64,000 nt of DNA from Verrucomicrobiaceae bacterium (GTDB taxonomy: Bacteria > Verrucomicrobiota > Verrucomicrobiia > Verrucomicrobiales > Akkermansiaceae): contig JAIXQH010000014.1 of the NCBI GenBank assembly GCA_027484055.1, positions 124,001-188,000 of the forward strand, written 5' to 3'. The translations under genes and the position numbers were made by a program. The notes beneath the pieces are model-generated. The model searched no databases, was not told the origin of the DNA, and saw only the letters and a list, made by a program, of their open reading frames with translations. Below, piece by piece: positions 426 to 42,775 of this stretch. Each line of letters opens with the position of its first letter. Within the stretch, counting starts at the first letter, position 1.

Positions 426-463
426 CGACGCAAAATAACCTGCCTACGACGCAAGATCGCCCC
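426..463 (+). promoter_or_regulatory. Candidate operator site A: 21-bp-spaced direct repeat (CGACGCAAAAT / CGACGCAAGAT)
   Basis: Half-sites at 426-436 and 447-457, followed by CGCCCC; about 57 bp upstream of the 514 start. Same arrangement as four other sites in the window. Confidence 0.7.
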
Positions 464-513
464 ATAGGATTGTGTCGCTGAATTCGTAATCTAGGAGTTA
501 GACCAATCAATCC

Positions 514-3500
514 ATGAAAACCCACCAGTCGCCGCTTCTCGCCTTTCTCTTCACGGTCACGATCATCAACCTGCAAGCCGCGTCCGATCCATCGAAGTCG
601 CCCTTTTCAGACAAGCCGTGTGATTCTTATGCGAATCACAAGGACGAGACGGGCAAGCCCGCGATCCTGCGCTGGGGGGAAGCACCGTATGAGGATTTTG
701 GATCGCGGGCGGTGACGTTCGACTCCTCGGGCGTCAGGAAACTCCGCCAGGTTCCCGCACCCGGGGTTCATCCGCGGATCTTCTTCGGGCCGGATGATCT
801 GGCGGATGTGAGAAAGCGTGTGCGCGAAACCCGGTGCGGGCAGGAGGCATGGAAGAACATCCTCAGTTGGACGGAGATGATGAAGGGCCGTTATGACGAT
901 ACCCAGGAATACGCGAAGCCGTACCGATGGAACGGGGGCTTCGGCGGCCTTCACGGGCGGGTGCCGCTTTTCAGGTTGGGAATCCCTCGCGAGAGCGGCA
1001 AGGCTCCTTATAACAGAAATTTGGCGGCGGCTTCGATCTATCAGGGACTGGCTGATGGAAGTGCCAAAGATTTTCCGGAATTCTACTGGAACACGATGGC
1101 GCTGGAGTCTTTCCGCTGCCTGATCGACGAGGACTCCGCCGGAGCTAGGACGGCTGCCAACGCCGTGGTCACGATGATGAGGATCAGCCAGGCGAAACGG
1201 GCGGTGGATCCGAAACAGCAGGGGAAGACGCCAGCCCAACCGGTTGGAGGATTCCAACTCGCGTTTGCTTATGATTTCCTGTATGGGCAGTTGACCGCTG
1301 AACAACGCCGACTCATTCACGACGAGCTTGCCGCCACCACGTGGTCGCACGACAACTACGGCACCTTTAATACGGCGGAGTCCTCGCGCAGCAACTGGGC
1401 GACATTTTCCTACTGGCTCTTCCAGGTATTGGCCATTGAGGACGAGCCGGGATTCAACGACCTGAAAGTGCGTGGCATGTATCGCGGCTGGAGGAACCTG
1501 CTCACCTACGGATGGTTCGAATCCGGAGCCACCTTCGAGGGCGAGGCGAAGAATCAGCTTGGCATGGATGGCATCATCGCGTTCGCCTCCCGCCAGTCCC
1601 GGTACGGATTCCAGAACCTCGCGGGCCATCCCTACCTTCAGACGTATGCCAGAAATTTCCTGCCGCACAGTGTGAATCCGATGCTTTCCGGCTTCCATAA
1701 GTATGATCTGCTAGGTGGCAGCCGCGCGCTGAGCGCAGGTGCCGCGCCGTCCGACATGATCGGGCTGAAGTTCATGTTTCCGCAGGATAAGGCGATCGAC
1801 TGGATCTATCGAAAAGCGGTGGGCGAAGGTTATGAGAATGTCCCGGACCGCCCGGACGGCTACTTCAATGCCCTGCTTTTCTTCGCCATATTCGCCACGG
1901 ATTTCGATCCGGCGAATGACGACCCGGCGAAGTTAGATTTGGGAAACACCTTTTTCTGCGGAGAGCGGGCGTTGATGATGACGCGAAGTTCCTGGGATCA
2001 GGACGCCATGATGCTCAACATGCACACAAGGCAGGCGAACGGTGGTCATTCCTTCGCGGATCGCAACGCGATCATGCTCGCCGGTGCGGGGAGGGTCTGG
2101 TCGCCTAACGGATATGCGTCTTTCCGGACGATGGAGAACAGCGTGGTTTGCATCGATGGAAAAAGTCAGAACGAAATCGTGCCCGGTCGCTGCGTTGATT
2201 TCCAAAGGACGGACTCGGCATCGTTCATGGTGGGGGATGCGAAGTATTCGTGGGACTGGGATTGGAAGCGGCTTGAGAAGGGCGGCGGATATTTCATGGT
2301 CTCGGACGTCGATGCGGGCAAGGTGGCTGTGCCGCCCGGATGGGAACCCGTTCTCCACAGTGTGAATGATTTCGCTTACAAGAAACTGCGGCACGCCTAT
2401 CTCGACTGGCCGCAGTTCCGCTACGCCCACTGGATCCTGCCGAAGGGGGCGCTTTCGCCCTACGTGCGCCGTCCGCTGAATCCGATTCAAAAGGCATTCC
2501 GTACGGCCGGGCTTGTCCGAGGCTCGTTCCCCTATGCGGTTGTCATCGACGATATCCGCGTGGACGATTCAAGCCATCGTTACGATTGGACGCTCGCGCT
2601 GGAATACGACATCCGCATCGCAAGTGTCGAAAAGCATGCTGACGGCTCGCTCGATGTCATTCTAACCGGATCAGACCCCGATCTGAGATTGGAGCACCCC
2701 AAGCAACCGTTGCCATCCGCCATCGACTCCGGGAGCCTGATTCCGCCTGGCCAGCCGATGCTGCTGGTAAAATTGCTCAACCGCTCCACCGATCCCGGCC
2801 ATTCCGTTAGCGAGCCTGTGATCGTCGAGCTGCCCAACGGTGCGGATGCCGTAAAATACGGGCGCATCCGGCGTTTGGTGATTTCCGCAGAGTCCGTGGC
2901 TCCGGATTTCAAGTTCATCCTCGCACCTTACCGGCAGGGCGGACCCGTGCCCCGGATCGCTTGGGATAAGACAAGCTCCACCGCCATTGTTAGTTCCGGC
3001 GATGCCACGGACACCGTTGTTTTTTCTACGGCTCATTCCGGCAAAACCGACGTGGTGATCAATCGAAAAACCGGAACGGCTCCTGCAACAGAAGTCATCC
3101 ATGTAGACAAGCCGATCACTCCATTGGCGGACGTGCTCGCCGACAAGCGGGCCAAGGAGATCGCCGATACGAAGGCATGGGTGAAAAACGAACTGGCGGG
3201 TTTCAGTCCAAGGTCTCTCGAAGGTCTTGTGGCGCATTGGAATTTTGAAGATTTGCTGGATTCGAAAACGTCATCTATTGGAAGTCTAACTGCCACGATG
3301 GATTGTGTCGGGGGCAGGCTCGTCCCCGGAAGGGTCGGCAAGGCGCTGCAATTCACCGGTGCCAAGGAGGGGGTTCCTCTTCATGTCGATTTGAGCGGGT
3401 TCGCATCCGAAGGCTTCACCATCGCGTTCTGGGCCAAGGATGCGGAGCGGAAAGGCGGCTATTTTTTCAACAACAACGGTAATCGCGGCATCAGTTTGGG

Positions 3501-3807
3501 AATTGAAAACCAAACACTCAGGGTGGATGCCGATTCGCGGCATCGCTGGTGTAAATCACCGGCGACGTTCGACGAGTGGCAGCATGTCGTCTGGACCTAT
3601 GATGGCAAGACCATGCGGCTCTATCTGGGCGGCAGGCAAGTGGCCACGGGTGATGCGTCCGCGGCGTTTAGTGTATCGAAAAACACCACACTGGCTCCCG
3701 GATTCGCCGGGGTCCTTGATGAGCTCGTGATCTGCCGCCGTGCACTTTCTGCGGATGAGATTGCCCGGGTCTTCGCGGTGCAGACCTACGGACCGGGAAC
3801 GCAGTGA
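514..3807 (+). CDS. Secreted heparinase II/III-like polysaccharide lyase with C-terminal LamG/concanavalin-like domain
   Basis: Signal peptide; PAPGVHPRIFFGPDDLADVRKRV N-terminal motif; toroid-like helical region then beta-sandwich; C-terminal GLVAHWNFED..GKALQFTGAKEGVPLHVDLSGFASEGFTIAFWAKD..YDGKTMRLYLGGRQVATG LamG signature. Confidence 0.75.
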   Translation: MKTHQSPLLAFLFTVTIINLQAASDPSKSPFSDKPCDSYANHKDETGKPAILRWGEAPYEDFGSRAVTFDSSGVRKLRQVPAPGVHPRIFFGPDDLADVRKRVRETRCGQEAWKNILSWTEMMKGRYDDTQEYAKPYRWNGGFGGLHGRVPLFRLGIPRESGKAPYNRNLAAASIYQGLADGSAKDFPEFYWNTMALESFRCLIDEDSAGARTAANAVVTMMRISQAKRAVDPKQQGKTPAQPVGGFQLAFAYDFLYGQLTAEQRRLIHDELAATTWSHDNYGTFNTAESSRSNWATFSYWLFQVLAIEDEPGFNDLKVRGMYRGWRNLLTYGWFESGATFEGEAKNQLGMDGIIAFASRQSRYGFQNLAGHPYLQTYARNFLPHSVNPMLSGFHKYDLLGGSRALSAGAAPSDMIGLKFMFPQDKAIDWIYRKAVGEGYENVPDRPDGYFNALLFFAIFATDFDPANDDPAKLDLGNTFFCGERALMMTRSSWDQDAMMLNMHTRQANGGHSFADRNAIMLAGAGRVWSPNGYASFRTMENSVVCIDGKSQNEIVPGRCVDFQRTDSASFMVGDAKYSWDWDWKRLEKGGGYFMVSDVDAGKVAVPPGWEPVLHSVNDFAYKKLRHAYLDWPQFRYAHWILPKGALSPYVRRPLNPIQKAFRTAGLVRGSFPYAVVIDDIRVDDSSHRYDWTLALEYDIRIASVEKHADGSLDVILTGSDPDLRLEHPKQPLPSAIDSGSLIPPGQPMLLVKLLNRSTDPGHSVSEPVIVELPNGADAVKYGRIRRLVISAESVAPDFKFILAPYRQGGPVPRIAWDKTSSTAIVSSGDATDTVVFSTAHSGKTDVVINRKTGTAPATEVIHVDKPITPLADVLADKRAKEIADTKAWVKNELAGFSPRSLEGLVAHWNFEDLLDSKTSSIGSLTATMDCVGGRLVPGRVGKALQFTGAKEGVPLHVDLSGFASEGFTIAFWAKDAERKGGYFFNNNGNRGISLGIENQTLRVDADSRHRWCKSPATFDEWQHVVWTYDGKTMRLYLGGRQVATGDASAAFSVSKNTTLAPGFAGVLDELVICRRALSADEIARVFAVQTYGPGTQ

Positions 3808-3855
3808 TCGCTTGCCTTGATCACGGGAGTTCGGGACCATGGCCCTTCCGAAAAT

Positions 3856-3893
3856 TGACGTAAAATCATCCGCCCACGACGCAAAATCACCCC
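3856..3893 (+). promoter_or_regulatory. Candidate operator site B: 21-bp-spaced direct repeat (TGACGTAAAAT / CGACGCAAAAT)
   Basis: Half-sites at 3856-3866 and 3877-3887 followed by CACCCC; about 100 bp upstream of the 3988 start. Confidence 0.7.
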
Positions 3894-3987
3894 TGTTGAG
3901 TCCCGGTCGCTTGCCATTGAGTCAATTTTTACATTCGGGAAGGTTCATTCAATCGCTTTTCCACCAAACACCAAGCCAGAAAAACCC

Positions 3988-6900
3988 ATGAAACCACGAT
4001 TCTTTTCATTCACGCGGACCGCACTGATCAAGGCGACTCCGGTCATCATTGTCATTGCCCTGTCATCAGGCGTCACTCAGGCAGCCATCAGATACTGGGA
4101 CCTTAACAGCACGACTTCCGGTCTCGGCTCAGGTACCGGTTCATGGGATCTATCCGCTACGAACTGGAACGCGGCGACAGCAGGCACCGCCGCCACTGTT
4201 GCCTTCGTCAACGGCGATGACGCGTTTTTCCAGACAGCAGGAGTTAACACGGTCACCCTCGATGCCAACCTCACCGCGAATTCCATCACTCAAACCACGA
4301 CTGCCACCGCCACCACCATCAATTCGGGAGCAGGCACCCAGATTACGATCACTTCCGGCAGAATCGATAGCATCGGCAATCAGCCGTTCATCATCAATCC
4401 CGATGTTGTTCTCAGTGCCGCTGGCACGATAACGTCCTCATTGTCCACCAATCCCATCACTCTGGCCGGCGTGGTGAGCGGAGCGGGATTCACCAAAGCG
4501 GGAATAGGAACACTCAATCTCAACGGAGCCAACACCTATACCGGAACCACCAATGTCATCGCGGGCACAGCCAGTGTTGTGGGTGCCACGGCGAACATCA
4601 ATGCTTCTTCTGCAATCACCCTCGGAGGTTTCGGGCTTACCGCCACGCTCACGCTGGACAATACAGCGGGCATCGTGAATCGCGTCAGTGATGCGGCACC
4701 TCTTTCACTTTCGACGGGCGGTGCCTTGAGCCTCGTGGGCAACGCGAGTGCGAATACCTCCGAAACGGTCGGTGCCCTCACAATTGGCTCTGGTGCTTCG
4801 TCCATTTCGATTTCCGGAACGGCGCTAGGCCTGCTCCACACACTGTCGGCGGCCAGTATCACGCGCACCAACCTGGGAACCGGTCTTGTCCGCGGCACCA
4901 GTCTCGGTCAGGCGGCGACGAATGCGACGCTGCTCACTCTATCGGATATTTCCGGGCTGAATTTAGTCGGCACCACCACTGCCAACGGTACCTCGCCGGG
5001 CACCGCCGACAACGTGAAAATTGTGCCGTGGCTTATCGGTGACTCCAGTGCCACCTCAGGAGGAATCAACTTCGTGACCTACGATACCACCGGCGGCTTG
5101 CGACCGCTGGCTACGGGTGAATACGCGACTCTTGCTGCAGGTTATGTGGCAACCGGCGAAAACGTGAGGGCCTTCAATGGTACGATCACGGCAGCCAGCC
5201 CCAGCTTGAACTCGCTGCTCTTCAGCACCGCCAGTGCGCTCGGCGGCAGCGGAACTCTCAGCATCGCCAGCGGCGCAGTGGGACTCATTAACAGCAACAC
5301 CGCCTCGATAGGCAGCGGTTTCTCCAGCCTCAGTCTGGGGAACAACGAGGGGGTGATTTATGTCACCAGCAGCGGTTCACTTACCATCAACACACCGGTC
5401 GACGTTACCGGTGGCGGTGGACTCACTAAAGCGGGTGGTGGGAGTGGCTCACTTGTCCTCGCAGCAGCGAACCTTTACACCGGTCCTACGACCGTCAACC
5501 AAGGCACCCTTGCTATCGGCACTGGTGGCAGCACCCACGCGTCTTCTGCGGTTACGGCAGTGACCGGCGGCACCCTGAATGTAAACTCCGGAGGCACTGT
5601 CAACGGCAGCGTTACCTCCCAGATATCCACCGCGCAGACCACCGCCAACGTCATCAACAGCGGCACCATCGTCGGCGCGCTTACCACCAGCGCTGGCACA
5701 GGTCCAGCTAGTCCGAATGCAAACGCCACCCCTATCGTCAACACCGGGCACGCTCAACTGAATGCGGGTTCCACCACGGGCAGCATCACCAACAACGGCC
5801 AGTTGACGTTTTCCGGCGCGGCTCCGATCACGTCGTTCGGCACCATCAGTGGTTCCGGCGGCTTGGGCGGATTCAACGATGCGAACACCGACACCAAGAC
5901 GCTCACCCTCGCCGCAGGCAGCGCATTCTCCTATTTCCGCAATACCAACTCGACAGGCACCGCCACCTCGGTCCTGCAAGTCGCGGGCGGTGGCACAACG
6001 TCCTTCCAATGGTTTGGATATAACAACACGGTCACCGGAGCGGCTGATGTGACCTTCAACGGCGGCATCTTCAATATTGGCAGGATCGGCCAAAATAACA
6101 CCGGAGCCACCTCGATCGGGATCTTCAAGGTTACCAATGGCTCGGCTCTCAACATCGCGACCAGCGGCCACGAGCACGGCACCTGGAACATCATCAACGG
6201 CACCATGGCTTTCACTGGCAGCATCCTGCAAGCCAACGGAACCAACGCCGCCGCTTCGGCTTTGCAGCTGACGGTCAACAACAGTGGCGGAGGTTCCGGA
6301 AGCACCCTTTCCGCGACGGGTTCTCTAACGCTTGGCAGCGGCCCGACGGGTTCAAGCCAGAACAATTTCCTGACTATCGGCAACGGGGGGACCGCTTCGT
6401 TTACGGGCGGCCTGCTTTCTGTTGGAAACGCGACGGCGGCGACCGCTGAAACCAATACGGTTAACCTGAATGGCGGCAAACTGCTCGTCGGCGGCACATC
6501 AGGGATTTTTGCGGCAGCAGGCACAGGGCAGATCAAGACCTTCAACTGGACCGGCGGCCGACTCGCGTCCTTGCAAATCACCCCGGGCGTCAATTTCACC
6601 AATCCTGCCAGCGGTGGCATCACGACCACGGGCCTAGTCAACAGTGGTGGTGTTCTCGCTCCGGGAGATGTCGGCACTGCGGGCCGCACCACCATCACTG
6701 GCGACTACACCCAGCAGGCCGGGGGCACCCTCGCCATCGACATCGGCGGCACCAACCAGACCGGAGGCTTTCAGAATCTGGTAAACTCCTATGACAACCT
6801 GCTGTTGAACGGTGCCTCCACCGCGAATCTTTCGCTCAACGGCAATCTCCAAGTCTCGCTCCAAGGATTCACTCCGGCGAGCTCCGATTCCTTCACGATC

Positions 6901-7464
6901 ATTCGCGCTGCTCCCTCCACACTGGTAGTGAGCGGGGCGTTTTCCAATGTGGCCTTCGGTGCCCGTATCACCACCCAGGGCGGCGAAGGAACTTTCCTAG
7001 TGAGCAACACGGGCACTTCGGTGACGCTCAGCGACTATCAGTCTAACACAGCAAATGACTTTGCCGCATGGATCGGAACCTTCGGTGTGAGCGATCCTTC
7101 CTTCGATGCCGATCCGGACAACGACGGACTCGACAATGGAGTCGAAAACATCCTCGGCTCCAGTCCGTCGGTTTTCAGCGAAGGGCTCACCCAGATCTCC
7201 ACCACCGGCAGCTCGGTCAAATTCCGGCACAGCCAGAGTAACACCATCGCCTCCGACGTGGCGAAGACCTATCAGTGGTCCCCCGATCTGGTGAACTGGG
7301 CCGCCAGCGGCGTGAGCATCGGCGGCACTACTGCCACCATCGCCGAGAGTACTATCACGAATGTCTCCGCTCCAGGCAACGATGTGATCGAAGTCACAGT
7401 CACCGTCACCGCCGGTCCTGCGACCAAGATCTTCGGTCGTCTCGTCTCGACCCAGACACCGTAA
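3988..7464 (+). CDS. Secreted autotransporter-associated beta-strand repeat protein (1158 aa)
   Basis: Signal peptide; repeats such as GFTKAGIGTLNLNGANTYTGTTNVIAG and GGLTKAGGGSGSLVLAAANLYTGPTTVNQGTLAIG; Gly/Thr/Ser/Asn-rich; shared C-terminal module. Confidence 0.85.
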   Translation: MKPRFFSFTRTALIKATPVIIVIALSSGVTQAAIRYWDLNSTTSGLGSGTGSWDLSATNWNAATAGTAATVAFVNGDDAFFQTAGVNTVTLDANLTANSITQTTTATATTINSGAGTQITITSGRIDSIGNQPFIINPDVVLSAAGTITSSLSTNPITLAGVVSGAGFTKAGIGTLNLNGANTYTGTTNVIAGTASVVGATANINASSAITLGGFGLTATLTLDNTAGIVNRVSDAAPLSLSTGGALSLVGNASANTSETVGALTIGSGASSISISGTALGLLHTLSAASITRTNLGTGLVRGTSLGQAATNATLLTLSDISGLNLVGTTTANGTSPGTADNVKIVPWLIGDSSATSGGINFVTYDTTGGLRPLATGEYATLAAGYVATGENVRAFNGTITAASPSLNSLLFSTASALGGSGTLSIASGAVGLINSNTASIGSGFSSLSLGNNEGVIYVTSSGSLTINTPVDVTGGGGLTKAGGGSGSLVLAAANLYTGPTTVNQGTLAIGTGGSTHASSAVTAVTGGTLNVNSGGTVNGSVTSQISTAQTTANVINSGTIVGALTTSAGTGPASPNANATPIVNTGHAQLNAGSTTGSITNNGQLTFSGAAPITSFGTISGSGGLGGFNDANTDTKTLTLAAGSAFSYFRNTNSTGTATSVLQVAGGGTTSFQWFGYNNTVTGAADVTFNGGIFNIGRIGQNNTGATSIGIFKVTNGSALNIATSGHEHGTWNIINGTMAFTGSILQANGTNAAASALQLTVNNSGGGSGSTLSATGSLTLGSGPTGSSQNNFLTIGNGGTASFTGGLLSVGNATAATAETNTVNLNGGKLLVGGTSGIFAAAGTGQIKTFNWTGGRLASLQITPGVNFTNPASGGITTTGLVNSGGVLAPGDVGTAGRTTITGDYTQQAGGTLAIDIGGTNQTGGFQNLVNSYDNLLLNGASTANLSLNGNLQVSLQGFTPASSDSFTIIRAAPSTLVVSGAFSNVAFGARITTQGGEGTFLVSNTGTSVTLSDYQSNTANDFAAWIGTFGVSDPSFDADPDNDGLDNGVENILGSSPSVFSEGLTQISTTGSSVKFRHSQSNTIASDVAKTYQWSPDLVNWAASGVSIGGTTATIAESTITNVSAPGNDVIEVTVTVTAGPATKIFGRLVSTQTP

Positions 7465-7489
7465 GGCACCGCTACAGATTGATTAGAAT

Positions 7490-7517
7490 TTCCGGAGGTA
7501 ACGGGTTTTCTCCGGAA
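7490..7517 (+). other. 3'-UTR hairpin TTCCGGAG-GTAACGGGTTTT-CTCCGGAA
   Basis: Perfect 8-bp stem, 12-nt loop, just after the stop codon; near-identical element at 36928-36954. Confidence 0.6.
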
Positions 7518-7524
7518 GGAAAAA

Positions 7525-7562
7525 CAGGGGGCGCCGAGTGGAGAATCGGCGGCCCTTGTCTT
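7525..7562 (+). terminator. Probable stem-loop terminator
   Basis: GGG(G)CGCCGA..TCGGCG(G)CCC stem followed by TTGTCTT, downstream of the 7464 stop. Confidence 0.5.
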
Positions 7563-7735
7563 CGCTCTTGAAACAACCGGTTCTCTCTCCCTTAGCGAAC
7601 CATGGGGTCGCGTGAATCCATCAGCTAATGAATGGAAGGCAGGCGTTCAATCTTGGGCACCGGGGTGGGGGAGTCGTGTGCCAGCCACAGCAGGGAAAAT
7701 TTCCCGATCAATCCGATTTTACCAAACGGCCAATC

Positions 7736-10700
7736 ATGAAAAAATCCGAAAGGCAGAAGCCCAAACCTCTTGTGATGGGCACCATTTTACGCACGTCTCT
7801 CATCATGCAGGCAGTTATGCTGTCTGCCCAAGGTGCTGATTTCTACTTCGATGTGAATGGCGCGTCCCCCGGCAGCGGTGTCGCTAGCGGAGGCTCCTAC
7901 GCTTGGTCCGGTGCCTTCTGGTCCACCGCCACGGACGGCACCGCCGCCACCGGCACACTTCCGACGCGTAACACGTCCTACTTCTCCGCCGGCGTGGATG
8001 GCGAGGGCAGCTTCACCGTCACTGGCGCGACCAGTGAGACTGGCAGCGTCGTCGTCCAAGAGGGAAACGTCACCCTCCAGAGCCTCACTCGCATTTTCAA
8101 CAATGGCTCGGTCCTGCGCACGCTCGCCGGCACCAGCCTTACCATTCAAAACTCGCCAGATTTCTATAACAACGGGGTTACCTTTGACACTGCCGCCGAC
8201 ACGACGATTACGATTGCCGGGACCAGTAGCGGCAGTCGCAAAGCACTCCTCACCAAAACCGGACCGGGGCGAGTGATCTTCCAAGGCGTCAACTCCGGCG
8301 GCTCCGGTGGCACGCTCACCATCCATAATGGCGAATACAGGATCCAGAACAGCGCGTCCGTCGCCGACGGCGCTTCGGTCGTCAACTCCGGCGGCACCCT
8401 CTCGCTGGCCAACAACATCGCTCCAACTCGCGGCCTCACACTCAATGGCTCAGGCTACATCTCTGCTGGCGCACTCCGCAGCGTTTCCGGCAGCAACTCC
8501 TGGAATGGCCTGCTTACCTTGGGTTCCGCGACCCGCATCCACGCCGACCCCGGTGCTTCCCTTACCCTGAACCCCGCCGCTGGAAATTCGGTGACCGGCG
8601 CTTTTCCGCTGGCCCTCGGAGGCTCGGGGACGATCACCGTTTCCAAGCCCATTTCCGCCGTGGCGTCCCTCACCAAAGACGGCGCGGGCGTAGCTATTCT
8701 GGCTGCCCCAAATCCCTTCACCGGACCGACCACCGTATCCGTTGGAAGCCTGCGTTTCTCCGAAACCTCCGGCGTGTTGGCGACTGTCGGCGGGTCACTT
8801 GCCGTGAATGCCACCGTCGAGGTGGTCAACGCCGCTTCCCAAACATGGTCCACACCGCTTTCCGGCGGCACTGCGGGCCGTTTCGTAAAGCAGGGTGGGG
8901 GACGCCTCACGCTCTCCGGCAGCCACTGGTTCGCAGGCACGGTAGCAATCCAGTCCGGCACCCTGACCCTTGCCACCGGCTCGTCTGTTTCTTCCGTTGC
9001 CCGTTTCGATGTCTCCGCCAATTCCACCTTCGATGTCTCCGCAGTCCCGGGCTTCGCGCTCGTCTCCAGCCAAACGCTTTCCGGCGTCGGAAATGTCACT
9101 GGATCCATTACCACGCAGGCAGGCTCCGTTCTTGATCTTACTCCGGGCACACCGCTCACCGTCACGGGTGCTATGACGATCACCTCGGGCACCGCAGTGC
9201 GTGCGCCCGCCGCCCTCGTCAATGGCACGTATCCGCTCATCCGCACCACCGGCGGCACCCTAACGACATCGCCCTCCGGGCTTTCCGTAGTCGGCTTCGT
9301 TTCCCCGACGCAGGTCGCCTCGCTTGAACTCAACGGTGGGGCCACTGAGCTTTCTCTGGTTGTTGCGACCAATCCCTATTCCAGCCGCGCGTTAACTTGG
9401 ATGGGCGATGGTTCGGAAAATTTCTGGGACAACGCGACTTCTAGCACTTGGCGCACTAACAGCATGCCCGTCGTCTTTACGACCTCCGACACACTGACCT
9501 TCGACCAAACTGGATCTGCCAACCCGACGGTCAACCTCACAGGGACCCTTGTGCCGGGTTCCGTGACTGTCTCGTCTAACACCGACTATACGTTGACCGG
9601 CGAAGGCAGAATTGCTGGACCCACAGCACTGTCCAAATCCGGCACCGGCAAGCTCATTCTAACCGGCTCGCACACCTTCACGGGCGGCACCTCGCTGATC
9701 GGCGGCACCCTCGAACTCCGCGCTACCGGTGCACTCGGCACCGGCCCCTTCACTAACACCGCGACGCTGGCACTTGCTCCTCCCACGTCTCTCACCTTCG
9801 GAAATACGGTGTCCGGCTCCGGTGCGCTGGTCGTCTCCGGGGGGAGTGCGACCGTTGCAGGTAACAACTCAGCCTTCACCGGCCCCGCCACGGTTTCTTC
9901 CGGCACTCTGACACTCGGCCATGTCTCCGCGCTTGGCACCGCAGTTGGCGCAACTACGATTTCCTCCGGCGCGACGCTCGACCTGGCGGGGCTTGCCGTG
10001 GGCGCTGAGCCCGTCGTGCTTGCGGGTGGTATCTTGGCCAACACTTCCGCGCCTGTTGCCTCGCTCGCCGGCCCCCTCACCGTGTCCTCGGCTTCGAGCT
10101 TGGTCACGGCGAGCGAACTCACATTATCCGGTGCGCTCGGCGGCAATGCAGCGCTTGAGATTTCTAGCGGCGTGTTGCGGATCAACGGAAATTCCGCGAC
10201 TAACACCGGATGGGTCACGGTCGCAAGTGGTGCCACCCTTGCCGGCTCCGGGTCGCTCGGCGGCGGGCTAATAGTCGCAGGCACGCTAGCACCGTCTACC
10301 GGTATCGCGGTTGTGGCCGCACTCACCGTGCAGGGAAATTCCACACTGCAGTCCAGCTCAACGACCCGCCTGCGCATCCAGAAAGCCAGCGGCGTGGCAT
10401 CCTCCGATCGACTCGTCGTTGGAGGCACGCTCACCTTAGGCGGCACTCTGGCCATAACGATTTCCGGCCAGGCGCTCGCCGCTGGTGACACGTTCACCCT
10501 CTTCACCGCCGGCTCTTTGAGTGGCAGTTTTTCGGCGGTCCAGCTGCCTTACCTCTACGGCGATCTTCAATGGGACCGCTCCACCTTGGCGACCCACGGT
10601 GTCGTGCGTGTCATCGCTTTACCTGCGGTCTCCACCCAGGCCCAGCGCCGCGAGTGGTTGCTCACCCGCGTTGCTGACGATCCGGGGGGAGTCGACGGTT

Positions 10701-22968: not shown

Positions 22969-22972
22969 GCCT

Positions 22973-23293
22973 ATGAAGACTATCCTGACACCCAGTAACC
23001 TCTTGTTTCGAATGCTCTTAATCGCTGCGTATTCGCCAATGACTCCGTTATGCTGCGCCGACACGCCGTCCTCCATCGTCGACCCGGAGGCCCTGTGCCA
23101 GGCCGTCCCTGCGCCCGGAGTTCATCCGCGCATCCTTTTCGGCCAAGGCGACATCCCAATGCTGAAGCGTCGCCTCGAGCAAAGCAAAACCGGCCAGAAT
23201 GACACGCTCGTCTTCTCTGCTAGCGACTGTGCCGCCGCCACCCGCGTCAGCGTCCTGCGCGATGGCGCTGAAATCCTTTCCTCACGCACATGA
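22973..23293 (+). pseudogene. Internal-deletion remnant of a heparinase II/III-like gene
   Basis: 106-aa ORF with signal peptide; ALCQAVPAPGVHPRILFGQGDIPMLKRRLE resembles the N-terminus of the 514..3807 protein; then abruptly NDTLVFSASDCAAATRVSVLRDGAEI, resembling its late region TDTVVFSTAHSGKTDVVINRKTG. Confidence 0.6.
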
Positions 23294-25617: not shown

Positions 25618-25677
25618 ACACATTAAACAAGAACCATACACCTGAAACCCTCACCTTGTCTCTCTCTCTCGGTCCGA

Positions 25678-25764
25678 TCAAAAGCGCAGCTTGACCGTCA
25701 TGCTCCAGTCGCGGCCTGATAGAAAAATCGGGCTCCTTGGTTTTACGAAAATCAATTCTACCCC
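25678..25764 (-). pseudogene. C-terminal remnant of a TonB-dependent receptor
   Basis: Minus-strand frame reads GVELIFVKPRSPIFLSGRDWSMTVKLRF-stop, typical of a terminal outer-membrane beta-strand; no ORF upstream (that space is coding on + from 25810). Confidence 0.5.
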
Positions 25765-25809
25765 TGCAGAATCTAAATAACAATGAACTTCCTAACTCCT
25801 CCTTTACAA

Positions 25810-27339: not shown

Positions 27340-27347
27340 TTCTCCCG

Positions 27348-29519: not shown

Positions 29520-29523
29520 CTTT

Positions 29524-31156: not shown

Positions 31157-31194
31157 CGACGCAAAATCGCACGCCAACGCCGCATTATCACCCC
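31157..31194 (+). promoter_or_regulatory. Candidate operator site C: 21-bp-spaced direct repeat (CGACGCAAAAT / CGCCGCATTAT)
   Basis: Half-sites at 31157-31167 and 31178-31188 followed by CACCCC; about 110 bp upstream of the 31297 start. Confidence 0.7.
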
Positions 31195-31260
31195 TTCTGT
31201 CACAGGGAAACTCCTGCAAGATGAGAGCATATTCCTACCCGAGGATCATTCGTCTGCACT

Positions 31261-31284: not shown

Positions 31285-31296
31285 CCGCATCGCACT

Positions 31297-34200: not shown

Positions 34201-36921
34201 GTGCAAGGAGCAGGCGGCACTGTTGCCCTTGGCACCGCGAATGATTACAGCGGTGCGACCTCCATCGCGGCAGGCACCTTGATGCTCGGCAACGCTACGG
34301 CACTCGGCACCACAGCTGCTGGCACCACAGTCACGTCCGGCGCGGTGCTCGATCTCAATGGCCAGACAGTCGGCGCGGAAGCGCTGGCGATCAACGGCAC
34401 GGGCATCAGCAGCGGCGGCGCTCTCATCAATAGTAGCGGCACGGCGGCAAGCTTGAGCGGTCTGACCACCTTCAGTACCGGCACCAGCATCGGCGGCAGC
34501 GGTAACATCACTCTCAGCGGCGGTATTGCGGCCACGGCGTCCACCAATAATCTGATCAAAGTCGGCGCGGGAACGTTGACTCTCTCCGCTGCTGCCACCA
34601 CCAACCGCAGCACCGTGAATGCCACCACTCAGATTGATGGCGGTGTGCTCAGAATCCAAAATGCCAGTGCTCTGGCAACAGGAACAACAGCCGTCACTAC
34701 GATCAATGGCGGTGTATTGGAGCTCAATGGAGGCATTACGTTGGATCAACCGATCAGCTTGAACAATGGCGGAACGGTGCGTTCGAACGGCACCAATGCA
34801 AGTAACGGCAAAATCACAGTTTCCAACGCAGTCGCGGCCAATAGCGTGACGCTCTCGACGGTCGGTGCGAGTGACGTCTTCACCGTTGGTAACGGCTCGA
34901 ACGACATCACAGGCGGCAACGGTTCCGACGACACCATCACGGTCTCCGGCCCCGGCACCGTGGTTCTAGGCAACGCCAGTGACTACGTCGGCAACTGGTC
35001 CTTCAATGGAGGCACCACTCAAATCGGCTCGGCCGCCGCCCTCGGTGCCACACCCGCTTCAACCATCACCCTCAACGGTGGTGCACTGAATGGACGTCTC
35101 GCTTCCAGCACCGTCTTCACCGCGAACCCGATCACCGTTTCCTCCAACTCGTCCCTAAACGCTGACCGTAGCTCTAATGGAGCAGGCGTTAACTACACAT
35201 TTGGCGCCTTATCCATCGGCAGCCAGACCCTATCGAGCACTTCCACCGCAGCAGTTACCAGCGGCACAGGCGGAGTAATCGTTGGGGCCACCACGCTCAC
35301 CGGAAGTCCAACCTTCAACGTCACAAACGGAGCGACAGCCGCGACTACATTGACCCTCGGCGGGATTGTATCCGGCTCCGGCTTTGGAATAACAAAAAGT
35401 GGCAGCGGCGCTTTGAGTCTGCTGGGTGTAAACACCTATTCCGGCGGCACAACCGTTAACAATGGTACACTGAACGTCGGGGGGACCGCGACCAATACCG
35501 GTACCACTATCACGGGATCGGCTACCGGCACTGGCAACGTTGGCTTTGCAAGCGGCACTAGCTTAAACAACTCATTCGGAGCTGCTTGGTTCGTTCCCAC
35601 GATCACTCTTGGGGGCGCTGGCAGCACGTTGAACCTCGTTAGTTCCAATCGTCTGCAAGTTAGTTACAACATTTTGGAGCTGGGCGATAGCGGTCGCACG
35701 GGTGTGACCACTATCAATGTAAACGGTGTGAGCAAGTCCGTCACCGGGGGCAATACCCTGGCGTTGGAAAACACCGGCCAGTGGGGATGGGAAGTGGCGA
35801 CAACCGTCGCTACGGGGGGCGCGACGACCATCCAAAACGGCACGCTCGATCTCCAGACCAGTACCTTCTCCGGCACCAACTACGGGATGCACTTTATTCG
35901 GTCGACCAATTTCACCAACGCCGACCTAGTGATTGGGAACAATGTGATTCTCGGGGCCAACGGCAGTTCTGCATTGGGCACCAACGCCGCAACTTCCCCT
36001 AACGTCACCATCAATAGCGCAGGTATTCTGAATCTCTTGGGAAGCAGCAAGACCGTCAAATCGCTTGCTGGCTCAGGTTCGATCTACAACAGCATGGTTT
36101 CGTCAAACGCCAGCGTCAATACGCTGAATATCGTTGGCACCTCCGGCTCTACGACATTCTCCGGAGTGATCGGTAACGGTCCCGGCACAGGAACCTTGTC
36201 AGTTAACAAAACGGGCGCATCCACCCAGATCTTATCCGGCACTAACATCTACTCAGGCACGACTACAATCAGCGGCGGAACGCTCGCAATCAACGGTGAT
36301 CACAGCGGTGCGACCGGTGCGGTCAGCGTAGGTGGAAACGGCAGCTCCGGTACTCCGACTCTTGCAGGTAGCGGCACGATTGGTGGTGCTACAACCATCG
36401 CCGCAGCGGGTTCCGGCGTGGTGGGAACCCACTCGCCTGGTGTCGCCGGCGTGAGCAACGGGGTCGGCACCCAGTCACTCAGCAGTACTTTGGACTATGG
36501 CACTGGTTCAATCTTTGAGTGGTCGCTTCAAGCTGCCTCCACCTCCGATCCGGGTGCGGTTTCGGATGCATCAACCGGGACCTACGACAAGGTGGTTGCC
36601 GGCGGCGCTGTCACGGGAACCGGTGCGATCTTTAAGATCGTGCTTGGTGGCAACGACTTCACCGACGCCTTCTGGAATACTGACAAGACATGGACGGACA
36701 TCTTCTCAGGCGCAGGCACACCGACTAACCTCGCCTCCATTTTCACCACCTTCAGTGGCACGAACGTGAACGCGGACGGCACGGTGATTGGCAACCCTGG
36801 TCGCCATTTCACCTTCAACGGTACGTCCACCCTCACTTGGACCGCTGTCCCCGAGCCCACCAGTGCACTCGCCGGTCTGCTGATCGCCGCCGGCCTGATG
36901 CGCCGCCGCCGCGACGCTTGA
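31297..36921 (+). CDS. Secreted autotransporter-associated beta-strand repeat protein with C-terminal PEP-CTERM signal (1874 aa)
   Basis: PATR-type repeats (FGITKSGSGALSLLGVNTYSGGTTVNNGTLNVGG); C-terminus WTAVPEPTSALAGLLIAAGLMRRRRDA is a canonical PEP-CTERM tripartite signal. Confidence 0.9.
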   Translation: MKARKNPFLHAGGIAAKYSCTHYKAFSTLLAAVSLLAVSAPSAFAASYYWDTNNADGFTSITGAWNGINTFWNTDITGAASGTFIASPTSADDLFVNGGTTGTITMSGTQSTSSINFGANVVTTLSGGTSLTIGGTGTQSGVFASSSAASNLNTPLILNASRTAFNFSNTSTGLLTIGGNVTGAASSGTQTITAGSSAAGGITFSSIIGDGLAGGITALTVNSSNTSAITTLNGANTYSGPTTISAGRLTVGGTGSLSSSSAVAVNSTTTGALTINSGGVVGGNVTVAPSSSAATNSNNLVNSGTISGNLTINSSTVPAPIVVQANSVISGNAILNGGSSTSSGGTIRNDGQLTIAGSTAVTLGTLTSTGTGSAGSGGTGAIHYNNTNASGNTLNFANGSSFAWLSVGNGAIGSLNTTGTVSLYSYAQGAITNPNSAWPFTMSFTGGTWNVGQVGQNNSTKIATGTTNILGGSIFNLAPVAASTWTGLAASNGGTFMHGTWNIGGASAGTLNITGGFNESGGYNTVPISTGINGLQFTVGNSGTLTTTAASVLGFATSQLTGQTTAQTTNSLTVNSGGSVTMAGNFSVNNTTLQNATTTFNTVTVNGGTLSNNGILYIGNTNLVNTFLGTNTVNVAGGTLTQTGGSVSLGASGTAATNYANILNVSSGTMTIGNSTTAQSLQVGTASNTASSVSNTVNLSGGKLVVAGAISAFAGTGQVNTFNWTGGQLTAGTVTTTSATWAAAGGGGIASSTLNNTAGTFAPGDIGTGGRTTVTGAYTQGASGTLAIDLGSNTIATAFQSGAAFYDTIAMTGALTLGGKLNVSAINSYSPSGTFNIITGATSNSGTFTNVNPNNNRVNLLTGGSMIFTRGATSTLTGYTAGSNLVWTGSASLPNGWDDSTANWDRDGVASSFSSANADYVTFDQSGIANNTVNLNSTVTPSSVLFSNTSGTYTVTGSGKISGSSTVTVQGAGGTVALGTANDYSGATSIAAGTLMLGNATALGTTAAGTTVTSGAVLDLNGQTVGAEALAINGTGISSGGALINSSGTAASLSGLTTFSTGTSIGGSGNITLSGGIAATASTNNLIKVGAGTLTLSAAATTNRSTVNATTQIDGGVLRIQNASALATGTTAVTTINGGVLELNGGITLDQPISLNNGGTVRSNGTNASNGKITVSNAVAANSVTLSTVGASDVFTVGNGSNDITGGNGSDDTITVSGPGTVVLGNASDYVGNWSFNGGTTQIGSAAALGATPASTITLNGGALNGRLASSTVFTANPITVSSNSSLNADRSSNGAGVNYTFGALSIGSQTLSSTSTAAVTSGTGGVIVGATTLTGSPTFNVTNGATAATTLTLGGIVSGSGFGITKSGSGALSLLGVNTYSGGTTVNNGTLNVGGTATNTGTTITGSATGTGNVGFASGTSLNNSFGAAWFVPTITLGGAGSTLNLVSSNRLQVSYNILELGDSGRTGVTTINVNGVSKSVTGGNTLALENTGQWGWEVATTVATGGATTIQNGTLDLQTSTFSGTNYGMHFIRSTNFTNADLVIGNNVILGANGSSALGTNAATSPNVTINSAGILNLLGSSKTVKSLAGSGSIYNSMVSSNASVNTLNIVGTSGSTTFSGVIGNGPGTGTLSVNKTGASTQILSGTNIYSGTTTISGGTLAINGDHSGATGAVSVGGNGSSGTPTLAGSGTIGGATTIAAAGSGVVGTHSPGVAGVSNGVGTQSLSSTLDYGTGSIFEWSLQAASTSDPGAVSDASTGTYDKVVAGGAVTGTGAIFKIVLGGNDFTDAFWNTDKTWTDIFSGAGTPTNLASIFTTFSGTNVNADGTVIGNPGRHFTFNGTSTLTWTAVPEPTSALAGLLIAAGLMRRRRDA

Positions 36922-36927
36922 ATGATT

Positions 36928-36954
36928 TTCCGGAGTTAATGGGTTTTCTCCGGA
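36928..36954 (+). other. 3'-UTR hairpin TTCCGGAG-TTAATGGGTTTT-CTCCGGA
   Basis: Near-identical to 7490-7517, same position relative to the stop codon. Confidence 0.6.
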
Positions 36955-36961
36955 CTTGATA

Positions 36962-37003
36962 GGGGAGTCGCTGACTGGAGGGTCGGCGACTCCCTGCTTT
37001 TTT
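36962..37003 (+). terminator. Rho-independent terminator
   Basis: GGGGAGTCGC ... GCGACTCCC followed by TGCTTTTTT. Confidence 0.8.
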
Positions 37004-37098
37004 GGCCGACGTGCAGAGTTTCTGCTCAATCCAATGACAAATGACAGCCGCTCTTCGGGCCCTGGCGCACTGTCTTTCATCCTTTGCTACTTTTTCGC

Positions 37099-37136
37099 CG
37101 ACGTGAAATACTACCGCGGTGACGCAATATTGCCCC
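37099..37136 (+). promoter_or_regulatory. Candidate operator site D: 21-bp-spaced direct repeat (CGACGTGAAAT / TGACGCAATAT)
   Basis: Half-sites at 37099-37109 and 37120-37130 followed by TGCCCC; about 300 bp upstream of the 37431 start. Confidence 0.6.
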
Positions 37137-37430
37137 TTTGGGAAACGGGTGATGGCGTAGACTTTCAATCTGTAAGTAGTAGTGTGAGGCCGCGCAGGCA
37201 AGACTGCGCTCTATCTGTTTCTCGATGGTCACGTGGAGCGCCTGCAGGGTGACCGAGGCGAAGCCAATTGCTCGGCCCATCCGGACGAGACGAACATCTG
37301 GAAGTGGAGGCGATCATCCGGTGCCAGCCTAGCAGACCTTCGACAGCGGCGTTGTTGTTTGGTCGTTGCCGCCAGCGCCGGTTGGATTTTCAGTCGGCGT
37401 TCATCGTGGTTCAAAAGTGCGTATCCCTTC

Positions 37431-40400
37431 ATGAAATCCAGTCCAACAGCCGCCCGCTCCGCCCTTCGCTTCATCACGGCGGCTGCGCTCAGGCTTGCCC
37501 TCTCAATGCCATGCCTCTCGCATGCCGGTGGCATCGGGCAGACGGCCATCACCGCCGTCCATGACACCTACATCCAGCGAGGCAGCACCACGGATTACGG
37601 CGCTGGCACCACCTTCCTCGTCAAGCGCGACGGCGCCGACTTCTCGGGCGGCAGCGACCGCATCGGCTACCTCCGCTTCGCTGTCGGCGGATCGCTCGCT
37701 GCGGTCGATAGCGCGAGCTTGCTGCTCTCCTTCACCAACTATCCCGGCGATGGCACCACGCCCTTCACCTTCGAGGTATTCGGCCTACCCGACGGCCACC
37801 CGAACGAGGCCTTGGATGAATCGTTACTGAATTTTTCGAACGCCACCAATGCCAGCACCACCCTGGCCGGCAGCCTCAACCCCACAGGCCTCACTTCCCT
37901 CGGGACCTTCACGCCCGCCGCGGTATCCGGCGTTACCGATGTCGAGTTCACCGGCACAGCTCTGCGCGACTTCATCGCCGCGAACGCGAACACCCACATC
38001 TCTCTCGTCATCTTCCGCCAGACTCCTAACGGCGGACTTCCCAGCTTCTTTGCCTCCAGCGAGAACACCAACCTTAGCTCCCGGCCGACGCTCGTCATCC
38101 GCAGCCCTAACGATGCTTACACGGTCGCCAGCACCACCTCCAGCAGTGCCGCTTCGGGGTTCCCGGCCACGAATGCCACCGACAATCTTTTTACCACCCG
38201 CTGGTCGGCCAATGCGGACAACAGCAGCACGAAATCTTCGATTACATTGGATCTCGGTTCCACCCAAACGGTCAATCGCCTCAACCTGATTGCCTATCAA
38301 CACGGGCGGACCTACCGCCTCGAAAGCTCTGCTAACAATTCTACTTGGACGTCGGTCGCCCCTGATTTTCGCAGTGGTATCGGCTCCGACGTCAATACGC
38401 AGCTCCAGAGCACCAACCTCTATTTCCAGCCCCGCACCGCCCGCTATTTTCGCCTCACCTCGCAGACCTCGCTCTCCGGAAAAAGCGTCTCGATGTGGGA
38501 AATCCAACTCTTCAATGATGCCTCCGCCTCCACCGTCCTCGCCCGCATCGCCTCGCTGCGTACAGCGGTGGCGGCGCTTCCTTCCACTACGGCGGACGAT
38601 CGCATCAAGCGCGCCGTGCTCGACGTCGCCATCGAACGCGCCCAGGCCTCCATCAACATCAGCGACTTTATCCACGCTGGCTTGCTGATGGACGATGCGG
38701 ATGAAAAACTGCCCGTCTCCGCAGCCACGATGGCCGCCCAGATCAGCGGGCTTCCTAACATGCGAGTCCTCCGCCCGCTGCTTCAAACCACCACCGCCAC
38801 CAATCCCTATCTCAAGCGCGTCACCGACGGCGTCAACCTGTTTCTCGCAACCACCGATCCCGCATGGGAAAAAAACACTCCGCAGGCAAATGTGCTGGAG
38901 GATTTCAGCCTGGCCCGCACCACTGGCCAGCAGATGGACGCGTTATTCTGGGCCTTCGCCCATCCAGATAGTCCGCTGAAAAACAACGATGAAGTCCTGC
39001 GCCGCCTGCTTCGCCGCAGTTATGCCTATCTGGATGCGATCAATGTCCACGGACCCCTGATTCCCGCAGGCCAGCTTGCCAGCATTTACGACGACTTCGC
39101 CATCGCTCCCGCCTCCAGCGTCTTCCGCGAGTTCCCCGGCCTCTATCCGGGGCTCGTCCCCACCAACTCCGCCGCCGAGTGGGACAACGCGATGAAAATG
39201 GCCGCCCAAAACCTATGGGCTGCCTACCAGAATCGCGTCGCCTCATGGGTGAACACCGACGTCGCCATCGCTTGCGAGCTTTTCAACTTCGGCACCTGGA
39301 CCGCGCGTCCCGAGCTTCTCGCCAAGGCGCAGTATTTCATCGACTCCGTTCTAACCATGAATCGCATGTTCGAGGACGGCGCGGTCGGTTACATAGGCAC
39401 CCAGAATGAAACCGTCAACTATCAGGCCACTGTTTCCGAATACGTCTCACGCTACTTTGAGACCACCGGCAACGCTAACGCCGGCTTGATTCTCCAGAAA
39501 ATGCAATGGTATGGCGCGATCAACGGTCGCATCGGCGACTGGTGGACTGCCCCGGCCTGGAAGCACGCATGGAACGATATCCGCAGCAGCTTCTCCGGCG
39601 GTGAAACCGTTGCCGGAAACAACCCCTACGTCCGTGCCGAACTGGACGCATGGATCGCCGGTGCCGCCACCCTGACGAATTGGTATGGTCGCGCCCGCGT
39701 CGATCTCGCGTGGTATCAATCCGGCACTTCTCCCCTCAGCCGCCCGGACTACACCGTTTTTGATCGAAACACCCAGGGACCGCGCGCTTGGTATGGCCGC
39801 TGGAATTACTCCGCCACGCTTCGCAATATCAACTTTTCCGAGTCCGGACACACCACGCTCATCGGTGCGCAGGTGGCCGATCCCGATCCGGATTTCCGCG
39901 TCAATGCCTCGCTGATGGGGATCTATCCACGCCTTCGGGTGACCGCCGCCCCGGCGCGGAGTGGTGATGGCACACTCAACGAAGCCGGGCACGCATGGAT
40001 CACCTCCGGTCTCACCGGCGACTCCACCGTGAGCCGTGATTTCAGCGCGATTGGGGCTTCTTACGGATTGCACCAAGATGCCAGTTCGGTGAAGGGGACG
40101 ACCTACGATTGGACCGGCCGCCAAGTTTGGCTCAATCTGCCAGACCGCATCATCGGCCTGATGGACATCGCGCCCAATGCCGACCTAACGGCCTTTGAAG
40201 TCCAGGGCGTTATCCGTCTCGGCTTCGGCGGCACCTCGTTCAGCACGCCCAAGACGCTCGCCTCCACCGGAACCGACTCCTGGAGTTATGGCGACCTGCG
40301 AGTCAAACTTCACTCGCACAACTACGCCGCCGTGACGCCGGAAGTCTATGCCTTCCGCAACCCGAGCGCTCCCTTCACGGAAATCACCCTTCGCGACATG

Positions 40401-42728
40401 GTCGACGGTGCTTCCAATATCACGCCCGTTGCCCACACTGCCGGAACCCTCCGGAAATTCATCGCCGAGATCCGGCCTGCATCCACTACCGGGGAAGTCG
40501 CCGTCACCGAGGTCGCCGAAGCCGGTGGCTTGATCGGACTGGACGTTGCGAACCCCGAAACCGGTAGGAAATACCGCGTCGTTTACAACCCTGGCACCGT
40601 AGCTGCGAACTACACGCCCGCCCTTGGGTGGAGCGGTCCCGTCCGCATCCACCGGAGCGGCGCGCGCCACCGGCCGGACTGGCTGCCGGATCCCAGCGGT
40701 CCGCTGGTCTCGGTATATCTAAGCGGCGGACAGGTTCTAACGATCCTACCGAAGGCCCACATCGTCCTTGAACAAAGCATCCCGATCATCAAGGCGAACA
40801 ACATCGATCCACTCGACCAATCCTCCAGTTGGACAACCAGTCCGCTGATAGACGGAAGCATCGCCACTTGGAACTCCACCGTCGCCGCAGCCAATACGAC
40901 TAACGTCGGAAAAGGTAAAAACCTCGCTGGTATCATCATCGCCGATCCCGGCGGCAATGTCACCATCAGTCCTAACACCACGGGGCTGATGGCTCTCGGT
41001 AGCGCCGGAATCGATACCGCCACGTCCATCCGCACGCTCGTTCTTTCCGCGCCTGTCCGGCTCGACGCTGCCCAGACATGGACCACCGGCAGCTCCGGCT
41101 TAGCAGGTTCCACCCAGATTTCCGCCAGCGGCGTGATCTCGGGAGCCGGAGCACTGGCAATTTCCGCATCCGCTGGCCGTGGTGTCTCGCTCACCGCCGC
41201 TAACACCTTCAGCGGCGGACTCACCCTCGGTAGCGGCGCGATCCTTGATTACTCCGCAGCAGCAGCCTTCGCCGCGACAGGCGGTGTCCTAACCAGCAGT
41301 CCGTTCGGCACTGGCCCGCTGACGATCCAAGGCGGCACGCTCGTCGCTGGAAACCGGTTTTTCTACAATCCTAGCGTCACTATTCTCGGGAATTTTATCT
41401 GGTCCACCGCCTCCGCCCGCGTCGATACCAGCGGTGCGTTCGATCTCGGCGGGGGAATCCAGACGCTCAGTCTGGCCCGTCCCGTCACCGCGTCTAACGT
41501 TGTGGTCTCCGGGGGGAATAATTCGATCCGCTTCATCCCGGTCACCGGAGGAATTGCGACGAACACCTTCACTAACGGAACCTTGAGACTCGCCGCCGCC
41601 GCTTCGGTTGGTGCCGCTGATTTCGTCGTCGCCACCTTTGGAAACAGCAACCGCTTCACCGAAAACTCGGGTCTGGTAGTTGGCCCCCGGGTTTATATTT
41701 CTCCCTCCTTCTCCAGCACACCCTTCGGCTCGGCTGCGGCCATGCGCCCCGCCGTCACCCTCGAAGCGGGCGGACTTCTCTCTCTATCCGACGGCGGCTC
41801 CGGCCGCGGCCACTCGGTCTTCTCGCTGGCTGGCGGCGGCACCGTGCTCAATAACACCAGCGGCACCGCCGCGCGTACCGACGTTCTCACCATCGACGGC
41901 GGCATCAAAACCAGCAGCTCCGATTTTTCCGGCAGCATCGTCGATACCGACCTCTCCCGGTTTCCCACCGCCAATCCGAATTTGAAAACCGGCCTTACCA
42001 AAACCGGAGCCACCACCCAGGTTCTATCCGGTGCCAGTTCCTACACCGGCCCCACCAGCGTCACCGGCGGCGTTCTAACGCTCACCGGTAGCGTCGGCAA
42101 CACCAGCACCCTCACCATCGGATCCGGCGCAAGGTTTGAGAATCTCGGCTCCCTTGCGGTCACCGGAAACATCACCAACGGCGGCACCCTGCTCGTCACC
42201 GGGGCCGCCCAGCTTGCGGTGGGTGGCAGCTTCACGAACAACGGCCTACTCGACATCCGCGGCTGGTCCGGCACCCTGCCGCCCGGCCTCGTCAACAACG
42301 GCACAATCCTATCCGGTCCCACGCCGACGCTAGATCCCGGTGTTTTCACCGATTGGCAAAAACTCGTCTGGCCCGGAACCAGCGATCCCCAAATCGTCGG
42401 ACCCGATGCCGATTCCGACCAAGATGGTAGAAACAACCTACTCGAATGGGCATTGCTGCTCGACCCGAAACTGCCGGATGTTTTCAACCCCACCTTCAGC
42501 CTCAACGGCGGAATAATCGACTTCACCTACACCCGCCGCAAGGTCGCACCCGGCGAGGCCAGCTATCAGGTCGTGTGGTCGGACAGCCACGCCAGTGACT
42601 GGTCGGCTGCGAACGTCCTCACCGATCCTCCGGTGTCGCTCTCGACCACTTGGGAAAGCGTTCGTTCCACTCTGCCCGCAGGTGTTGGCGGCAGGCGTTT
42701 CGTTAGGGTCAGATTGATCCGCCCATGA
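37431..42728 (+). CDS. Giant secreted putative polysaccharide lyase: DNRLRE-like domain, F5/8 type C (discoidin)-like domain, helical toroid plus beta-sandwich, beta-strand repeats, C-terminal module
   Basis: ORF listed from 37233; likely start MKSSPTAARSALRFITAAALRLALSMPCLSHAG at 37431. DTYIQRGSTTDYGAGTTFLVKRDG (DNRLRE-like); FPATNATDNLFTTRWSANADNSSTKSSITLDLGSTQTVNRLNLIAYQHGRTYRLESS (discoidin-like). Confidence 0.75.
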   Translation: MKSSPTAARSALRFITAAALRLALSMPCLSHAGGIGQTAITAVHDTYIQRGSTTDYGAGTTFLVKRDGADFSGGSDRIGYLRFAVGGSLAAVDSASLLLSFTNYPGDGTTPFTFEVFGLPDGHPNEALDESLLNFSNATNASTTLAGSLNPTGLTSLGTFTPAAVSGVTDVEFTGTALRDFIAANANTHISLVIFRQTPNGGLPSFFASSENTNLSSRPTLVIRSPNDAYTVASTTSSSAASGFPATNATDNLFTTRWSANADNSSTKSSITLDLGSTQTVNRLNLIAYQHGRTYRLESSANNSTWTSVAPDFRSGIGSDVNTQLQSTNLYFQPRTARYFRLTSQTSLSGKSVSMWEIQLFNDASASTVLARIASLRTAVAALPSTTADDRIKRAVLDVAIERAQASINISDFIHAGLLMDDADEKLPVSAATMAAQISGLPNMRVLRPLLQTTTATNPYLKRVTDGVNLFLATTDPAWEKNTPQANVLEDFSLARTTGQQMDALFWAFAHPDSPLKNNDEVLRRLLRRSYAYLDAINVHGPLIPAGQLASIYDDFAIAPASSVFREFPGLYPGLVPTNSAAEWDNAMKMAAQNLWAAYQNRVASWVNTDVAIACELFNFGTWTARPELLAKAQYFIDSVLTMNRMFEDGAVGYIGTQNETVNYQATVSEYVSRYFETTGNANAGLILQKMQWYGAINGRIGDWWTAPAWKHAWNDIRSSFSGGETVAGNNPYVRAELDAWIAGAATLTNWYGRARVDLAWYQSGTSPLSRPDYTVFDRNTQGPRAWYGRWNYSATLRNINFSESGHTTLIGAQVADPDPDFRVNASLMGIYPRLRVTAAPARSGDGTLNEAGHAWITSGLTGDSTVSRDFSAIGASYGLHQDASSVKGTTYDWTGRQVWLNLPDRIIGLMDIAPNADLTAFEVQGVIRLGFGGTSFSTPKTLASTGTDSWSYGDLRVKLHSHNYAAVTPEVYAFRNPSAPFTEITLRDMVDGASNITPVAHTAGTLRKFIAEIRPASTTGEVAVTEVAEAGGLIGLDVANPETGRKYRVVYNPGTVAANYTPALGWSGPVRIHRSGARHRPDWLPDPSGPLVSVYLSGGQVLTILPKAHIVLEQSIPIIKANNIDPLDQSSSWTTSPLIDGSIATWNSTVAAANTTNVGKGKNLAGIIIADPGGNVTISPNTTGLMALGSAGIDTATSIRTLVLSAPVRLDAAQTWTTGSSGLAGSTQISASGVISGAGALAISASAGRGVSLTAANTFSGGLTLGSGAILDYSAAAAFAATGGVLTSSPFGTGPLTIQGGTLVAGNRFFYNPSVTILGNFIWSTASARVDTSGAFDLGGGIQTLSLARPVTASNVVVSGGNNSIRFIPVTGGIATNTFTNGTLRLAAAASVGAADFVVATFGNSNRFTENSGLVVGPRVYISPSFSSTPFGSAAAMRPAVTLEAGGLLSLSDGGSGRGHSVFSLAGGGTVLNNTSGTAARTDVLTIDGGIKTSSSDFSGSIVDTDLSRFPTANPNLKTGLTKTGATTQVLSGASSYTGPTSVTGGVLTLTGSVGNTSTLTIGSGARFENLGSLAVTGNITNGGTLLVTGAAQLAVGGSFTNNGLLDIRGWSGTLPPGLVNNGTILSGPTPTLDPGVFTDWQKLVWPGTSDPQIVGPDADSDQDGRNNLLEWALLLDPKLPDVFNPTFSLNGGIIDFTYTRRKVAPGEASYQVVWSDSHASDWSAANVLTDPPVSLSTTWESVRSTLPAGVGGRRFVRVRLIRP

Positions 42729-42737
42729 AGCGCCGGA

Positions 42738-42775
42738 TGCTGCAAAACAACCCTTGATTGCCGCAAAATTGCCCC
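42738..42775 (+). promoter_or_regulatory. Candidate operator site E: 21-bp-spaced direct repeat (TGCTGCAAAAC / TGCCGCAAAAT)
   Basis: Half-sites at 42738-42748 and 42759-42769 followed by TGCCCC; about 73 bp upstream of the 42842 start. Confidence 0.65.

Follow-up and report, generated by a model that had tools for sequence, protein, structure and literature searches.

Which regulator reads the repeated sites that stand before the genes of this verrucomicrobial locus, and how far does its control extend? The DNA analysed here (the window) is a stretch of 64,000 nucleotides, contig C62:124001-188000 of a 4.4-Mb genome, and holds five 38-bp direct repeats, each made of two half-sites of about 17 bp, far above chance. 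All lie on the + strand: operator 1 at 426..463 (half-sites at 426 and 447), 50 bp 5' of an ATG at 514; operator 2 at 3856..3893 (3856 and 3877); operator 3 at 31157..31194 (31157 and 31178); operator 4 at 37099..37136 (37099 and 37120); and operator 5 at 42738..42775 (42738 and 42759). An earlier note, made from the sequence alone, had placed sites at 426, 3856, 31157, 37099 and 42738 with exactly 21 bp between half-site starts, and both statements held for all five copies. With a two-half-site matrix applied to both strands of the window, these sites scored 36.7-41.9 and the next-best position 13.2, and each of them, when omitted from the matrix, still ranked above every non-site position.

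The genome-wide scan that the same note had called for, run here as a pattern search, found the motif not scattered: at <=3 mismatches there were seven matches, all on the + strand of C62, with no site elsewhere in the 4.4-Mb genome and 0 matches to a reversed control pattern at the same threshold. Weak sites were sought by matrix scan over C62 bases 1-248000, the remaining genome being covered by the pattern search at <=3 mismatches, and three weaker ones (80688, 91131 and 111245) were added. Thus, C62 carries ten sites, all on the + strand (80688, 91131, 95133, 111245, 113563, 124426, 127856, 155157, 161099 and 166738), while its best non-site position scores 13.5. Furthermore, 8.8 Mb of simulated third-order Markov DNA contained 0 positions scoring >=23 and three scoring >=19. 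Two other arrangements were seen in the related genome G034: at L120:840-899 (contig C97) a tandem of three half-sites, each 21 bp from the next (starts 899, 878 and 857, - strand), takes the place of the usual two before a beta-strand-repeat-like gene, and at L119:4529-4644 (contig C78) a pair of operators lies back to back on opposite strands for divergent genes.

The consensus of 38 sites, taken from the present genome and its relatives, is YGACGYAAAATNRYMCSCCNNYGMCGCAAWATYRCCCCT, with the core GACGCAAAAT. In this alignment conservation is confined to positions 1-39, and the flanks share almost no sequence. Locus DNA totalling 480 kb contains 29 same-strand half-site pairs spaced at 21 bp and one at 68 bp, with no further spacing up to 80 bp. 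Moreover, a -10-like hexamer peaks 23 bp past the site end, that is, 40 bp past the start of the proximal half-site; the peak has p about 0.001 over all 39 sites and is also significant in the relatives' sites alone (p 0.001-0.002), while in the ten own-genome sites alone it is suggestive only and not significant (p 0.06-0.10). The earlier note had placed a -10-like hexamer, where one could be guessed, roughly 40-53 bp from the proximal half-site start; the range narrows to a peak at 40 bp. By this fixed position, TAATCT at 487..492 (+), 23 bp past operator 1, is a candidate -10 hexamer, and TAGACT at 37158..37163 (+), 21 bp past operator 4, is another. All ten C62 sites have a same-strand gene start 41-157 bp downstream, and the five repeated sites of the window are promoter operators. 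Their -10 distance fits the activator geometry of AraC and XylR, and it is from this geometry that an activating role is predicted.

The ten sites span C62:80688-166738, each heading an operon of a polysaccharide-utilisation locus of about 88 kb, with operon limits drawn by shared strand and short gaps; the regulon reaches 44 kb upstream of the window. Behind the upstream sites lie a Kelch/SSF-transporter operon (C62 80883 on), an operon of an isomerase-like protein (AP_endonuc_2), a GH88/105-like hydrolase and a regulator (C62:91210-95115), a 2118-aa multidomain surface protein (C62 95326), a GH43 enzyme (C62 111365), and a 1077-aa secreted protein with GDSL and SASA esterases (C62:113650-124359). 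Within the window, where all target genes are on the + strand, operator 1 precedes a secreted 1097-aa protein with a Laminin_G_3 domain (514..3807), and operator 2 a predicted operon at 3988..31050, outlined from ORFs and Pfam, that starts with two PATR beta-strand-repeat proteins, a 3145-aa ORF and a small ORF, and continues with a GH95-like protein, a SASA esterase, a DUF5703/GH95-like protein and a second SASA esterase. The 2008-aa PATR gene overlaps at its end with the 3145-aa ORF (13531-22968). Operator 3 precedes a 1874-aa PATR protein (31297..36921), operator 4 a 1831-aa ORF of uncertain start codon with an F5/F8 type C domain and PATR (37233..42728), and operator 5 a 727-aa right-handed beta-helix protein (42821..45004), the last gene of the site-bearing region. 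In the following block of L-fucose isomerase (fucI), MFS transporter and AraC genes (45371-49933), matrix scans found no site.

Regarding the substrate, the GH88/105-like hydrolase and the esterases suggest an acetylated uronate-containing polysaccharide, and the GH95-like enzymes together with the neighbouring fucI suggest fucose. Since both kinds of clue are present, a 'fucose-rich' polysaccharide is not established; nor does the content of the locus (GH88/105-like, GH43, GH95-like, SASA) single out xylose. Four of the relatives' sites (L128:13885, L133:894, L115:544 and L115:18958) precede genes with prepilin-type N-termini (GFTLVELLVVI), and pilin-like or secretion proteins may belong to the regulon.

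The candidate regulator is encoded outside the window, about 29 kb upstream, by the last gene of the isomerase-hydrolase-regulator operon. This 397-aa protein (P0001; C62:93922-95115) has its best PDB match in Escherichia coli XylR (4fe4/4fe7, E 9e-28, residues 68-396) and carries the Pfam domains Peripla_BP_3 (117-284) and HTH_18 (317-392). It thereby combines a LacI/GalR-like ligand domain with a C-terminal AraC HTH, as XylR-type proteins do, and the DNA likewise presents a direct repeat of two half-sites, with a spacing of about 21 bp, by the promoter.

The distribution of this gene follows that of the sites. Orthologues (77-87%) occur in exactly 6/74 same-genus genomes, own genome included, and promoter-type sites were found in all six of these genomes compared with 2/68 without the gene (Fisher p = 1.5e-7), a count that leaves out matches judged to be in coding sequence, among assemblies most of which are fragmented. 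Pattern matches in many other genomes (CGCCGCAAGATGTCGATGCTGCGCCGCAAGATCGCC) fall inside long reading frames and were rejected as coding sequence, not operators. One of the six genomes, G087, was picked by its XylR-type protein, and only then was the motif looked for in its DNA: contig C38 gave one promoter-type match, and on C79 the regulator operon is preceded by a weaker site, with a matrix score of 19.3. In the two other genomes with sites, G020 (completeness 59%) and G077 (96%), the orthologue was not found, and a query restricted to the HTH domain gave no match above 35% identity in either. In G077, two near-identical variant sites (L131:1769 and L132:3839) precede two paralogous genes that look, by eye, alpha-L-fucosidase-like.

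Proximity is also conserved. In G000, G036, G034, G030, L115 and L116 the regulator gene is followed by a site at a distance of at most about 76 bp, which is kept in the last two at orthologue identities of 69% and 59%, respectively. In G000, G034, G060, G030 and G087 there is a site ahead of the isomerase-hydrolase-regulator operon; directly behind the regulator gene, no site was found in G060 and G087. In G725, from a different family (46% orthologue), the single site of a 36-kb contig (score 31.2 vs 10.2) lies about 70 bp behind the regulator gene and has a -10-like element. In addition, the recognition helices SRVTLER(R/H)FR and DRRRLNQVF are near-invariant across eight XylR-type orthologues; those of paralogues and of the AraC protein of the window are different. 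From co-occurrence and adjacency, we infer that the C62:93922-95115 protein binds these sites.

Given the observed sites, their geometry, their confinement within the genome, the co-occurrence and adjacency of the regulator gene, and the conserved helices, we put at roughly 85% the reading that the sites are operators of this protein, acting as a ligand-responsive, autoregulated XylR-type activator of ten operons, in which binding, ligand and activation are the predicted elements. By family knowledge, the LacI/GalR-like sensor domain would bind a sugar or oligosaccharide that breakdown of the target polysaccharide sets free, and a regulator dimer would sit on the two 17-bp direct-repeat half-sites, 21 bp or two helical turns apart. 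With the proximal half-site abutting the -35 region, the ligand-bound regulator would recruit RNA polymerase, and the ten promoters, that of its own isomerase-hydrolase-regulator operon included, would switch on the locus of about 88 kb, the site before that operon providing positive feedback.

It is unlikely that the XylR-type protein mainly represses and that sugar relieves the repression. A LacI/GalR-like sensor domain would suit such a role, and an operator beside the -35 region could also block polymerase, but the strict 21-bp direct repeat and fixed -10 distance are the activator geometry of AraC and XylR, and the operator takes the place of the -35 element.

Less probable still is that the sites are bound by another, unrecognised regulator travelling with the locus. 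The genes of a locus occur together as one block, the XylR-type regulator could co-travel without being the binder, and G077 has sites with no XylR orthologue detected. Against this, inspection of the ORF lists and translations read for the site-bearing region, by eye and for part of them with Pfam, revealed no second regulator; a site still adjoins the XylR-type gene at 46% identity in G725, and the operator geometry matches the XylR-type family.

The earlier note had, as an inference, linked the sites to the AraC-family gene at window 49055..49933 (+; AraC_binding and HTH_18 by Pfam); its interpretation is supported in part, but this link is not supported. This protein has an AraC-type HTH and sits 4 kb past the last target gene, and among 61 same-genus genomes compared its orthologue occurs in five of the seven bearing sites; the resulting association, however, has p = 0.026 against 1.5e-7 for the XylR-type gene. 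It is carried by 19 of the 61 (own and orthologues at 57-84% identity), 14 of which have no promoter-type site, including those with the five closest orthologues (80-84%; G001, G011, G016, G062 and G025), while G034 has nine pattern matches and no orthologue. Sites and gene show no more than this weak association across the genus, its recognition helices differ from those of the XylR-type orthologues, and the upstream regions of its orthologues share other blocks (TTTGTCA, ATTGTCTTG) and no GACGCAAAAT. We consider it highly improbable that this protein binds the sites, and rejected it as the binder by co-occurrence. The blocks TTTGTCA, ATGATGATTCT and ATTGTCTTG, conserved at window 48900-49055, are possibly AraC's own operator. 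Two HNH_2 endonuclease-domain proteins (50431-51612 and 51768-52601) are encoded beside the gene. The AraC identities also bear on descent: the distribution of XylR and sites is probably not simply that of one clade, as judged by AraC protein identities and not by a species tree, because the AraC-closest genomes (80-84%) lack both while G030, G036 and G060 (66-72%) have both.

That the repeats are chance or mobile/structural copies of no regulatory role can practically be dismissed and was rejected for its dissimilar flanks, since, although the copies cluster on a single contig, almost no sequence is shared outside positions 1-39 and no likeness extends beyond 39 bp, the sites hold a fixed place before genes and a fixed -10 distance, and other species keep them before different genes.

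Returning to the XylR-type activator, we lean slightly towards a broader view in which the whole locus of about 88 kb is switched by one dedicated regulator, a cytoplasmic XylR-type sensor acting through a previously undescribed operator, with regulator and operator moving patchily between species as a unit; the switch is predicted to take in the giant surface beta-strand-repeat proteins. In brief, an unannotated verrucomicrobial locus becomes a defined regulon with a named candidate regulator, an operator code and ten listed promoters, and large beta-strand-repeat surface proteins previously without an assigned role gain a co-regulated function. Moreover, the nearest AraC gene proves an unsafe guess for the regulator.

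Escherichia coli XylR is an activator that binds a direct-repeat operator with about 21 bp between half-sites next to the -35 element. The C62:93922-95115 protein shares its two-domain architecture over aligned residues 68-396 and is only a distant homologue (E 9e-28); unlike in E. coli, the operator has a GACGCAAAAT core, and in place of xylose genes there are ten operons encoding surface proteins and polysaccharide-degrading ones. E. coli AraC occupies 17-bp half-sites at araI1-I2 as a 21-bp direct repeat, the proximal one adjoining the -35 element; half-site length, repeat and -35 position are the same here, whereas the AraC sensor is cupin-type and the present one periplasmic-binding-protein-like. 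The mechanism would be of a known kind, with an operator sequence, regulator clade and regulon that appear undescribed as far as the literature was searched; no described verrucomicrobial XylR-type regulon was found there, which is not proof of absence. Bacteroides HTCS regulators likewise place an AraC-type HTH on direct repeats at polysaccharide loci, at sites of 16 bp with a 5-bp spacer or 12 bp with a 9-bp spacer, equivalent to a 21-bp period (PMC3878776). These are membrane two-component hybrids, in contrast to the single, predicted cytoplasmic protein of C62:93922-95115.
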